Shown one piece after another: positions 33,138 to 48,931 of a stretch of 56,648 nt of DNA. The DNA comes from Candidatus Woesearchaeota archaeon. GTDB taxonomy: Archaea > Nanobdellota > Nanobdellia > Woesearchaeales > UBA10216. The stretch is taken from the NCBI GenBank assembly GCA_016180085.1, contig JACPBX010000005.1, positions 1 through 56,648 of the forward strand. The letters run 5' to 3'. The notes beneath the pieces are model-generated. The model had not been told where the DNA came from. It saw only the letters and a program-made list of their open reading frames with translations, and did not search any database. The translations under genes and the position numbers were made by a program. The first letter of the stretch is position 1. Every line of letters starts with the position of its first letter.

Positions 33138-33170
33138 AATTTATAAAGTTCATGCGAAGATTTTTAAATG
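33138..33170. promoter_or_regulatory. Divergent TATA boxes between the lipoprotein and eIF-5A genes
   Basis: AATTTATAAAG (33138-33148) serves the minus-strand lipoprotein (ATG 33115) and ATTTTTAAATG (33160-33170) serves eIF-5A (ATG 33194). Both spacings are about 24 bases, giving leaderless transcripts. Confidence 0.6.
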
Positions 33171-33193: not shown

Positions 33194-33598
33194 ATGATAA
33201 AGGTCGCAGACGCCAGAATCGGAACTTGTATTATGAACAGGGGTGAGCCTTCCAAGGTTACCCAGAAAGAGAGGGTTACTGTTGGTACTCACATGCATTC
33301 CAAGACGAGGCTGGTTGTGCAGGGCATTTTCTCAGGCAGGAGCGAGGTTTTGACGCTTTCTCACCATGAGAACCTTGAGGACATTGAAATCACCAACAAG
33401 AAAGGCCAGGTTGTTGCTAAAATTCCTCCCAACCAAATACAGATTATGGACCTGGTCAGCTACGAGACGCTGGCCGCAACAGTTGAAAAGGAAATGTTTG
33501 ACAAGGCCAGCGAGGGCAGCATAGTTACGTTCATTGAGCTGCAGGGCAAAGTGATCATAATAGAAATGAGGGAAGCTCGTGAGGAAGAGCAAAAGTAA
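33194..33598 (+). CDS. Translation factor aIF-5A lacking the hypusine lysine
   Basis: The 134-residue product follows the archaeal IF-5A pattern: an N-terminal SH3-like domain (RIGTCIMNRGEPSKVTQ) and a C-terminal OB-like domain with IQIMDLVSYETL, close to the family's VQIMDLETYET. Aligned without gaps to typical archaeal proteins, the loop GKHGxAK becomes GTHMHSK: the lysine that is modified to hypusine is Thr32 (codon ACT at 33287-33289). Hypusine is needed for eIF-5A to relieve stalled ribosomes, so this protein may work without the modification or be a paralog with another job. Its TATA box sets the start. Confidence 0.85.
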   Translation: MIKVADARIGTCIMNRGEPSKVTQKERVTVGTHMHSKTRLVVQGIFSGRSEVLTLSHHENLEDIEITNKKGQVVAKIPPNQIQIMDLVSYETLAATVEKEMFDKASEGSIVTFIELQGKVIIIEMREAREEEQK

Positions 33599-44554: not shown

Positions 44555-45508
44555 ATGGATTCATTGCAGAAGGATGGCGAGTTGAGAGAAGTCTTGCTTT
44601 CTGACTGCGCTTTTTTTGAAAAAGCTTTTTCTTCTGTTCCTGAGCCGCTTGCCGACACTACCTTTACCATGCGCTTTATTTGGGCAGGGCCCCTGAAGCA
44701 TGCCTGGACTGTCATTAACGGGAATTTGTGCGTGTTTGGCTACGATAAGGGCCGCTATGTTGTGTGGGGACCTCCTGTCGGCGGCGCAAAGCTTTCTGAC
44801 ACGATTGCCGGGTGCTTTGAAATTGTAGAAAAGTTGAATGCTGCCGGGGGGGTAAATGCCAATCCTGCTGCGATTTACGTTCCAGAATGCCTCAGGTCAG
44901 AATACGAGGCTGTTGCCGAAAAGCTTGGCTGCTCGCTGGACTACTGGACCCAGGATTACATTTACAAAACCAAAGACCTGATTGAGCTGAAGGGCCCGAA
45001 GTTTGACTCAAAGCGCAACAAGGCCAATTTTTTTATGAAAAATTATGACTACGGCGTTGAAGAGTTTAATTTTGACAAGCACGGCAGCGAGTGCCTGGCC
45101 CTCGTGGATTTATGGAGAGAGCAGAAAGAAGGCATGGAAGGCAGCAGTGCTGACCTGTGGAGGTATGAAATTGGTGCAGAGACCGAAGTTGCAAGGACGC
45201 TGATAGGGTTTTCAAGGGAACTTGGCGTAAGGGGCATAGTGCTAAAGGTTGAAGGCAGGATAGTCGGGGTCAGCCTGGGCGAGCACTTAACGCCAAATAT
45301 GTGCAGCAATATCATTGAAAAGACAAACCCTGCCATTAATGGCGCGTCCCAATTCATTTTCAGGGAGTTTTCAGGTTACTGGTCGCGATTGTCCGGCTGC
45401 GAGTTCCTGAATGCCCAGGACGACTTTGGCGTGGATTACCTGAAAAGAGTGAAGCTGTCTTACCATCCTGCAAAGCTTCTGAAGAGCTACTGTTTGGAAA
45501 AGAAGTAG
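44555..45508 (+). CDS. DUF2156/GNAT-type acyltransferase (PG-lysyltransferase-like)
   Basis: A 317-residue soluble protein with the DUF2156 fold: N-terminal half around YDKGRYVVWGPPVGG, the segment LKGPKFDSKRNKANFFMKNY matching the family's conserved K-x-x-KRN-x-x-N-x-F, and the C-terminal half with FLNAQDDFGVDYLKRVKLSY. In bacteria this domain uses aminoacyl-tRNA to modify phosphatidylglycerol. The archaeal substrate is unknown. It converges on agmatinase, overlapping its stop by 22 bases. Confidence 0.78.
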   Translation: MDSLQKDGELREVLLSDCAFFEKAFSSVPEPLADTTFTMRFIWAGPLKHAWTVINGNLCVFGYDKGRYVVWGPPVGGAKLSDTIAGCFEIVEKLNAAGGVNANPAAIYVPECLRSEYEAVAEKLGCSLDYWTQDYIYKTKDLIELKGPKFDSKRNKANFFMKNYDYGVEEFNFDKHGSECLALVDLWREQKEGMEGSSADLWRYEIGAETEVARTLIGFSRELGVRGIVLKVEGRIVGVSLGEHLTPNMCSNIIEKTNPAINGASQFIFREFSGYWSRLSGCEFLNAQDDFGVDYLKRVKLSYHPAKLLKSYCLEKK

Positions 45509-46383
45509 CTGATGAGCTTGTATACGAGCTTTGCTGCGAGAACATCCGGCGCGCGGTTGCCTGGTATGGGCATCAGTTCAGTCACGTCAAAGCCCACAAC
45601 ATTCTTCCCAGCAGCGATTTTCTTCATGAATTCAAGCATCTGGTACCATTGCAGGCCGCCTGGCTGCGGTGTTCCCACAGATGGCATGATGGAAATGTCA
45701 AAAGCGTCAAGGTCAATTGTGATGTAAACGTTCTTCCCAAGCGATTTGACAGCTGCGTCCATCCAGGCGCTGTTGCTGCCGTCATGAATGTCTTTTGCGA
45801 AAAAGGTTTTTATTCTGCCGTTGCTGCTGCGGATGTGCTCCATCTCCTCTTCTGCAATGCTCCTCACTCCAACAGAGACAAGGGGGCACATCTCTGATAT
45901 CCTTCTTGCGACGCAGCCGTGGTTAAACCTGTTCCCGGCAAGCTCATCCCTCATGTCAGCGTGCGCATCAACATGAAGCACCGTAAGGTCGGGATATCTT
46001 TCCATGTGCGCCTTCACTGAACCGCTGCTGATGGAGTGCTCGCCGCCAATGACTGCGACTTTCTTATTGTCACCCAGCAAAACCTTGACAGCCTCATAAA
46101 CCCTGTTGGCCATTTTTCCCGCATCGTCAACCACTTCCACCTCATCCAAGGTGCACACGCCAATCCCGGTAAAGCTCCTTTCGGTCTCCTCATCGTAGAA
46201 TTCCAGGCAGCGGGATGCCTCGATCAGGGCTCTTGGGCCGTTTCTTGTTCCCGGTTGGTAAGTCGTGGTTGCGTCGTAAGGCACAGGCAGGATTACGACC
46301 TTCGATGCGCCATACTCTGCAAGCTCGTGCGGTATTGCCCCAAAATTGAACGGAAGGTAAAAATGCGGATTTTTTGCTGGCAT
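45487..46383 (-). CDS. speB: Agmatinase
   Basis: The 298-residue ureohydrolase has the Mn-binding motifs GGEHSISSG, VLHVDAHADMRDE and TIDLDAFDISIMPS, with the substrate-binding TPQPGGLQW. It cleaves agmatine to putrescine and urea, the second step of arginine-derived polyamine synthesis. It is the last gene of a minus-strand run with S-adenosylmethionine decarboxylase (57 bases upstream) and deoxyhypusine synthase. The arginine decarboxylase and spermidine synthase are not in the window. The last 22 bases overlap the DUF2156 gene on the other strand. Confidence 0.93.
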   Translation of the reverse strand: MPAKNPHFYLPFNFGAIPHELAEYGASKVVILPVPYDATTTYQPGTRNGPRALIEASRCLEFYDEETERSFTGIGVCTLDEVEVVDDAGKMANRVYEAVKVLLGDNKKVAVIGGEHSISSGSVKAHMERYPDLTVLHVDAHADMRDELAGNRFNHGCVARRISEMCPLVSVGVRSIAEEEMEHIRSSNGRIKTFFAKDIHDGSNSAWMDAAVKSLGKNVYITIDLDAFDISIMPSVGTPQPGGLQWYQMLEFMKKIAAGKNVVGFDVTELMPIPGNRAPDVLAAKLVYKLISYFFSKQ

Positions 46384-46440: not shown

Positions 46441-46875
46441 TTACTGTACGAGTTCCCTCTCCTTCCGCGCTATAGATGCTGCCTTCTGTACATTTCGCGG
46501 GTAGTGCTTGACAAACGCCTTTCCCCGCTCAATCATGTTTTTCTCTATCCGCTTGGCCTCAAGCCTTTCCATAAGGTATTTTGTGGCGGTTTCCTCGCTG
46601 AAGTACTTGCAGGAGAATATGTCAAATGAAGCAAAGCCGTCTTGCGGAAAGGTATGGATTGCAATGTGGCTCTCCACCAGAATTACGAAGCCGGTCAGGC
46701 CGCCCTTGTCAAAGGAGTTTGGCTGAATGGGGATTTTCGTCAGCTGGGGCGTTGAGAACTTGTGCATGCCGAGCATCTCAGGCATCTCATCCAGGACGCT
46801 GTAAACGAAGTCGTAATCATCCAGCTTCTTTTTATCGCATCCGTACAGGTCAAGAGTCAGGTGTGGTCCGAACAT
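46441..46875 (-). CDS. speD: S-adenosylmethionine decarboxylase proenzyme
   Basis: A 144-residue prokaryotic SpeD. The self-cleavage site is Glu68-Ser69 in LVESHIAIHTFP; the serine becomes the pyruvoyl cofactor. His74 and Cys89 (DIFSCKYF) are at the spacing of the Thermotoga enzyme (63/68/83). It makes decarboxylated SAM for spermidine. In Crenarchaeota a sister enzyme decarboxylates arginine, so this one could do so; I favour SAM. A 38-codon frame ends five bases before the ATG and its last codons carry the GAGGTGA Shine-Dalgarno site. Confidence 0.92.
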   Translation of the reverse strand: MFGPHLTLDLYGCDKKKLDDYDFVYSVLDEMPEMLGMHKFSTPQLTKIPIQPNSFDKGGLTGFVILVESHIAIHTFPQDGFASFDIFSCKYFSEETATKYLMERLEAKRIEKNMIERGKAFVKHYPRNVQKAASIARKERELVQ

Positions 46876-47147: not shown

Positions 47148-48113
47148 TCATTCAAAAAAATAATCATTGGACGCTATCAGGAGAGGGAAAATCACAGCTG
47201 CATCGCCGTAAATTGTGACGTCCCTGGCATTTTCGCTGATTTTCCCCCAGGATTTTGCCTCGCTTGTCGTAGCCCCTGACAATGAGCCGTGGTATGGCGA
47301 GCTGCTGTTGACGTAAATGGCGTAGTCAAGGCCTCCGCCAAGAATGTTTGAAATTATTGTGTGGTGCTTTGCTATGCCTCCGCCAAGTATTATCGCGCCG
47401 ACTTTCCCGCTTCCACTCTTTTTCGCGGAAATTGCGAAGTCAATTGCCTCAATTGCGCCTTTAAGCTCGTTCACCCTGAAATCCGGGTGCGTCTGCTGGA
47501 AAAACGCGAGTTGCAGCCCAACCGCGCCATCGGTTATTCCCGGGCAGAATATTGGAATGCTGTTCCGAGCAGCGTGGTAAACGAATGAGTCTTCAGTGTC
47601 AAGGTTCATGCCAATCTGCCTTATCAGTTCTGTTACCGTAAATTCGTGGCTGGTGCTGGTGTTATGGATTTTTTTCAGGACCTCAGCCATTTTTTCTTCC
47701 AGATACTCGTAGCATTCATTTGGCACGAATATGCTTCCCATCCTGTTGATGCCTTTCCTGCCAAGCTCGGCATCGTCCGCCTCAAACGTGCCCTGAAAAT
47801 AAGGCATTTTTGCCCTGGCGATGTCCTCGTCAAGCGCGCCGCTGCTTACCACAAGGGCATGCACCTTTTTTCTTTTGACCAGGTCTGTTATTATGCCGCG
47901 AATGCCTGATGCGGAAATGTTCGATGTGAAGCTCAGAAATATCGTTGCCTTGTCATTAACCATCTTGGCCAGAATTTCGGCAGCGGTTGCAATATTGTGC
48001 GTCTGGAATCCCGAGTTTTTGAGCTGCCGCACTAATTCAGCAACTGGCATGCCTTTCCTGAGCCGGATATCGGCAATTGGAGGAAGATTAAGGTTGCCGT
48101 CGTTGCTTTCCAT
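47148..48113 (-). CDS. dys: Deoxyhypusine synthase-family protein
   Basis: From ATG 48113 the product has 321 residues. It shows FLSFTSNISASGIRGIITDL, the NAD-binding segment and the C-terminal active-site region GGGIAKHHTIISNILGGGLD with the catalytic lysine of the (P)KHH motif and SWGKI. Deoxyhypusine synthase uses spermidine to modify one lysine of eIF-5A; the family also contains homospermidine synthases. The eIF-5A in this window lacks that lysine. A TATA box at 48137-48147 places this start 24 bases downstream. It is the first gene of the polyamine run. Confidence 0.9.
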   Translation of the reverse strand: MESNDGNLNLPPIADIRLRKGMPVAELVRQLKNSGFQTHNIATAAEILAKMVNDKATIFLSFTSNISASGIRGIITDLVKRKKVHALVVSSGALDEDIARAKMPYFQGTFEADDAELGRKGINRMGSIFVPNECYEYLEEKMAEVLKKIHNTSTSHEFTVTELIRQIGMNLDTEDSFVYHAARNSIPIFCPGITDGAVGLQLAFFQQTHPDFRVNELKGAIEAIDFAISAKKSGSGKVGAIILGGGIAKHHTIISNILGGGLDYAIYVNSSSPYHGSLSGATTSEAKSWGKISENARDVTIYGDAAVIFPLLIASNDYFFE

Positions 48114-48136
48114 GTTGCCAGTCAGCAAAGCCCGAT

Positions 48137-48814: not shown

Positions 48815-48931
48815 TTCTCTCCTCGAGAAAATTGGGAAGAAAGGAGTCTCAGCGAGGAGAAAAATGTCGCGCTAAACGCGAAACCCAAATCGGTAGTGCC
48901 GATTGGGCCCAGTCGCAGCGGCGACTTGGGC
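48815..48931 (+). ncRNA. Candidate structured leader RNA with four hairpins
   Basis: After the TATA box the transcript folds on paper into four stems. Stem 1: TCTCCTCG (48818-48825) with CGAGGAGA (48853-48860). Stem 2: TCGCG (48867-48871) with CGCGA (48877-48881). Stem 3: CCCAAATCGG (48884-48893) with CCGATTGGG (48899-48907), one bulge. Stem 4: GCCCAGTCGC (48907-48916) with GCGACTTGGGC (48921-48931), one bulge. A competing short hairpin TTCTC/GAGAA (48815-48829) would exclude stem 1. No T-tract follows; a Shine-Dalgarno GGGGGTG (48951-48957) does. No known RNA family recognised. Confidence 0.5.

Follow-up and report, generated by a model that had tools for sequence, protein, structure and literature searches.

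An archaeal IF5A paralog with threonine at the hypusine position in one order of Woesearchaeota

Can an archaeal IF5A function without the lysine that carries hypusine? The question is raised by a gene of a Candidatus Woesearchaeota archaeon within the stretch of 56,648 nucleotides analysed here (the window), whose 134-residue product has threonine where the modified lysine is expected. A first-pass annotation of the locus had left three options: that the protein works unmodified, that it is a paralog with a new role, or that this lineage has dispensed with hypusine. The features at the gene are as follows:

33161..33168, + strand: TATA-like box TTTTTAAA, centred ~29 nt upstream of the ATG (putative function)
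33194..33598, + strand: IF5A paralog ('GTH-type' IF5A), 134 aa, with an SH3-like N-terminal and an OB-fold C-terminal domain
33284..33304, + strand: β3-β4 tip loop G31-T32-H33-M34-H35-S36-K37 (G-T-H-x-H-[ST]-K in the family)
33287..33289, + strand: Thr32 codon ACT at the hypusine-lysine position (ACC, ACG, ACT or ACA in orthologs)

A divergent IF5A with a conserved threonine tip

In phmmer searches, residues 4-124 of the window protein pair with solved archaeal IF5As (E-values of 6e-12 for 8put, 3e-9 for 1iz6 and 3e-8 for 1bkb), and the loop aligns without gaps, GKHGSAK against GTHMHSK, so that T32 is the counterpart of K36 of Sulfolobus IF5A. When profiles of the two alignments, paralog and canonical, were compared (hhalign, 99.6% probability), the loop was again free of gaps. 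These results bear out the alignment made by eye in the first-pass annotation, including the GTHMHSK loop with Thr32 at the hypusine position; the C-terminal signature it had reported is also present and reads QIMDLVSYETL. The alignments, both significant and gap-free, place the protein in the IF5A superfamily. On the NCBIfam IF-5A model it scores 67.1 bits (1.1e-18), below the cut-off of 138, and on IF5A-like_N, the best Pfam domain model, which matches 14 of the 21 paralog members scanned, it reaches 20.1 bits, under the cut-off of 27.1. Scores that are significant but fall below the cut-offs indicate that the kinship with IF5A is real, yet that the subfamily has diverged. With canonical aIF5A (NF003076/TIGR00037) the paralog shares the two-domain SH3-like and OB fold, the gap-free loop, the G-x-H-x-x-x-K tip frame and the QIMD-x-x-SYET signature. 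It differs in that the acceptor lysine has become T32, the next glycine M, S or T, and the Pro/Ser ahead of the loop is lost. We found no paper on the loop residues needed by deoxyhypusine synthase.

The fold, too, is kept, as had been proposed. AlphaFold2 predicts an IF5A fold for the window protein (pLDDT 89.9, pTM 0.65), for which the best Foldseek matches in the PDB are archaeal IF5A (1bkb, 8put, 1iz6), followed by ribosome-bound eIF5A and EF-P. The longer predicted strands of the paralog, 18-30 and 35-44, enclose a four-residue tip (31-34), compared with strands 22-32 and 41-48 around an eight-residue loop in canonical IF5A; if the hairpin pairs as drawn, E26 lies opposite K/R39 on the adjacent strand. 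Together with the lost Pro/Ser, these features suggest a hairpin stiffer than the canonical one. The N-domain is less basic (mean charge +1.5 in the paralog versus +3.7 in canonical IF5A), several positions that hardly vary in canonical IF5A have lost their residue, and E18, E26, H35, H57, K76, Q83 and E107 are conserved in the paralog alone. The residues of the archaeal IF5A RNase, K72, H73, R125 and K126 in Sulfolobus numbering (PMC9599864), correspond to N68, K69, V120 and I121 in the window protein, which makes this activity unlikely in the paralog.

Searching the whole genomes of 79 relatives with the window protein revealed orthologs in 7/7 other genus members (77-89% identity), as well as in 13 further genomes of the same order. 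The protein is thus carried by 21 genomes of one Woesearchaeota order, with identities to the window copy of 32-89% overall. The motif GTHxH[ST]K is present in 21/21 copies, the window's included, all of them found without the loop as bait, and G31, T32, H33, H35 and K37 are invariant in the family. Conservation of the threonine across relatives, which the first-pass annotation had proposed to check, therefore holds throughout the 21 genomes, while the codon drifts (ACC in 10 copies, ACG in 7, ACT in 3 and ACA in 1). Five of the seven loop columns fall among just 12 invariant columns of the alignment (p=4.5e-5). G31, H33 and K37 are common to the paralog and canonical IF5A, and H35 is also frequent in canonical copies.

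Within the genus, the mean dN/dS of the paralog was 0.085 (26 pairs, Nei-Gojobori), an approximate value, with dS close to saturation in many pairs, and no higher than that of canonical IF5A of the same genus (0.145). A loss of selection on this copy, which in combination with a second, normal IF5A would have spoken against the earlier claim, is thus not what we find. That the threonine reflects a sequencing error, a chimera or a decaying pseudogene is hardly credible: the source is a single MAG, 83% complete, but the identical residue recurs in tens of independent assemblies with differing synonymous codons, the frame is intact and dN/dS is low, so that conservation, codon drift and selection together refute such an origin. 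The loss of the acceptor lysine, combined with purifying selection on the loop, strongly supports the option that the protein works unmodified, in the sense of working without hypusine.

In a wider sample, 27 of the 371 phylum genomes drawn carry the paralog, all 27 in the same order. Five weaker candidates (92-99 bits, four of them outside the order) were rejected as carriers, having canonical IF5A only. A contig scan, partly biased because the loop was one of its two baits, yielded ~47 loci that share the loop; almost all bear a Woesearchaeota or Nanoarchaeota label, and 7 are from the genus, partly from genomes already counted. Two of the scanned loci (L066 and L077) have the loop GTHTHTK, which lies outside the bait pattern and still contains the threonine. 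The viral contigs searched gave no relatives. The paralog is so far confined to one order of Woesearchaeota, and its patchy distribution there shows that most members can do without it.

Three single loci deserve mention. In a contig labelled Altiarchaeales archaeon WOR_SM1_SCG (L068) the paralog clusters with Woesearchaeota copies, by contamination or transfer. At L102:3449-3952 it seemingly occupies two reading frames (a frameshift or an assembly error). In genome G006 a C-terminal fragment of the paralog (C1:37818-37889; 24-25 aa, ~65% identity) lies 1.6 kb away from the complete gene, as a partial duplicate.

Canonical IF5A and the hypusine pathway in the same lineage

A maximum-likelihood tree of 108 sequences, built with the loop columns removed, united all 49 paralogs in one clade (100/100), with a branch of 0.76 between it and canonical IF5A. 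The clade joins the canonical tree on its Woesearchaeota side (split from other archaea 99/91), at a point of origin that is approximate, the tree program having warned of long branches and few columns. In several paralog genomes the canonical loop reads GKHGH[ST]K, so that the lysine and the next glycine are its sole differences from the paralog loop GTHSH[ST]K. The best reading is that this paralog of archaeal IF5A is old and has been retained by purifying selection.

The IF-5A family model splits the two types cleanly (138-162 bits for canonical copies, 56-92 bits for complete paralogs), and both occur together in 29 of the 34 paralog genomes seen in total; all canonical copies with the loop read have GKHG[x][AST]K. 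Forming a separate clade that co-occurs with lysine-bearing IF5A, the window protein is a paralog of IF5A and not its replacement, as the second option had it. The second, lysine-bearing copy that the first-pass annotation had suggested looking for is thus present in relatives, but was not found in the window's own genome (83% complete).

The paralog genomes without a canonical copy (G000, G003, G006, G027 and G304) are incomplete MAGs (83-95%). Canonical IF5A is present in 5/7 other genomes of the genus, in which it lies downstream of aRF1 (named by eye). The genus genomes without aRF1 are the very ones without canonical IF5A, G000, G003 and G006; the best match to aRF1 in them is aPelota-like and 26-30% identical. 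When the G006 assembly (23 contigs, 1,064,605 bp) was read whole, nearly all of the 20-kb IF5A block proved absent, including aRF1 and an eL43-like ribosomal protein gene (also named by eye). Since the essential neighbour aRF1 is absent as well, the missing canonical IF5A points to assembly gaps, and on the strength of the aRF1 synteny and the whole G006 assembly we reject the reading that the paralog is the sole IF5A in the genome. Absence of canonical IF5A was not enriched in paralog genomes (4/21 versus 6/58, p=0.44).

The window also encodes deoxyhypusine synthase, of the hypusine pathway, next to genes of polyamine synthesis:

45487..46383, - strand: arginase/agmatinase-family gene, polyamine synthesis (PF00491 on the syntenic ortholog)
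46441..46875, - strand: AdoMet decarboxylase-family gene, polyamine synthesis (PF02675 on the syntenic ortholog)
47148..48128, - strand: deoxyhypusine synthase (PF01916, 8e-93), with the WGK motif (active-site lysine)

The presence of deoxyhypusine synthase, adjoining the other two genes, speaks against a loss of hypusine in the lineage. At the syntenic polyamine locus of G003 and G006 the synthase gene is deleted, which leaves flanks 170 and 298 bp apart. Its replacement in G003, a deoxyhypusine synthase of 43% identity accompanied by a PLP decarboxylase (C45; L179:1984-3944), sits between RpoN and LeuRS (each identified by eye) on a contig syntenic with the genus; in the G006 assembly, read whole, no deoxyhypusine synthase was found. 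The third option, a lineage that has done away with hypusine and whose only IF5A is the Thr-type protein, could draw on these deletions, on G006 with neither synthase nor canonical IF5A, and on the window's genome, in which canonical IF5A was not detected. It is nevertheless very improbable and finds no support, because the window has the synthase and polyamine genes, a normal IF5A is present in 5/7 other genus genomes, those of the genus in which it is absent are missing aRF1 as well (and G006 nearly all of the ~20 kb around it), and G003 has a different synthase elsewhere.

Possible roles of the paralog

We favour, at a probability of roughly 55%, an accessory ribosomal factor that would act without hypusine and with its own target spectrum, by analogy with EfpL beside EF-P. 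Such a protein would enter the ribosomal E site, where its stiffer, unmodified Thr-His tip may come to lie near the CCA end of peptidyl-tRNA, and could assist at certain slow peptide bonds or ribosome states, accessory to canonical IF5A. The retention of G31, H33 and K37, while the acceptor lysine and the next glycine are gone, suggests that the paralog is most likely still ribosomal, and we infer that it binds the ribosome. The less basic N-domain, the loss of several canonical near-invariant residues, the patchy distribution and the neighbourhoods, mostly unconserved outside one subclade, argue against an accessory ribosomal factor. The weaker N-domain charge, together with the long branch to canonical IF5A and the residues conserved in the paralog alone, would also suit a neofunctionalised IF5A off the elongating ribosome, as an RNA-binding, ribosome-dormancy or other RNP protein whose GTHxH[ST]K hairpin has a new ligand (RNA, metal or protein); the HxH at the tip could bind metal. 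We regard such a role as possible though doubtful, given that the tip residues common to canonical IF5A are invariant and that the known RNase side activity is unlikely, its residues being replaced. The IF5A fold has been put to other use without hypusine in fungal Hex1, an IF5A-derived structural, self-assembling protein.

It is unlikely that Thr-His-x-His forms a new active tip, be it through a non-hypusine modification of Thr32 or through direct binding of a ligand or metal; were it so, the ribosomes of these archaea would be served by two IF5As of different chemistry. Modification of Thr32 itself (phosphorylation or glycosylation, for example), as new chemistry replacing hypusine, is compatible with an accessory ribosomal factor and, taken alone, quite unlikely. 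The threonine is strictly invariant while its codon is free to vary, and the homologous tip of EF-P is modified in unrelated ways, lysylation and rhamnosylation being among those named in PMC6544042. Nevertheless, the gene has no conserved neighbour that would be a candidate enzyme, such as a kinase or glycosyltransferase, and none of the conserved neighbours inspected resembles a dedicated modification enzyme, although linkage is not required.

A close analogue of the accessory factor that we favour is bacterial EfpL/YeiP (PMC11611912). It, too, is a paralog of a proline-stall factor, without the lysine that is modified but with a conserved tip of its own, and is found alongside the modified canonical factor, as the GTH-type protein is in 29/34 genomes. 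EfpL is built of three domains, with arginine at the tip and a loop longer by two residues, whereas the archaeal paralog, of apparently independent origin, has 134 aa, two domains, a Thr tip and a loop of canonical length, and thus lacks the structural hallmarks of EfpL. Some bacterial EF-Ps are active unmodified through a stiffer loop (PMC11611912); the predicted hairpin of the paralog may similarly be stiffened instead of modified, albeit in an archaeal IF5A with a Thr tip. In eukaryotes and archaea the tip residue has been described as restricted to lysine (PMC11611912, 2024), a rule that a conserved archaeal IF5A family with a Thr tip breaks. We found no description of the GTH-type family in the literature on IF5A paralogs in DPANN/Woesearchaeota, and it appears not to have been described previously. 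The family offers a natural test of the role of hypusine, and suggests an independent archaeal origin of the division into modified and unmodified factors that bacteria show with EF-P and EfpL.

Surroundings of the gene

The spacing of the TATA-like box fits a leaderless mRNA, and an A/T-rich TATTTAAA/TTTTTAAA box lies at the same distance in most orthologs of the genus; a search for promoter-like TTTATAAAG within the window was uninformative. The paralog gene stands alone in this genus. At 13 loci of another subclade it is followed on the same strand by an RNA pseudouridine synthase gene (PF00849), with a gap of -1 to 51 nt in 11 of the 13, a neighbour consistent with a role in translation or RNA. 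Beyond that one subclade the surrounding genes are for the most part not conserved.

Rfam and tRNA scans of the window returned nothing. At six other loci (L076:7850-7983, L070, L079, L080, L087 and L093) an apparent intron-bearing class II tRNA, judged by eye, lies shortly upstream of the paralog ATG. Its T-loop (GGGAGTTCAAA...TCTCCC) is broken by an insert of ~40-110 nt in L070, L079, L080 and L087, and ARAGORN and Rfam leave most of these upstream tRNAs uncalled. Short dispersed matches of 35-55 bp with 80-95% identity occur in many places in the genomes of the genus, including window positions ~48880-48931, many genus contigs and L139:7190-7230, and seem to represent a genus-specific small repeat.
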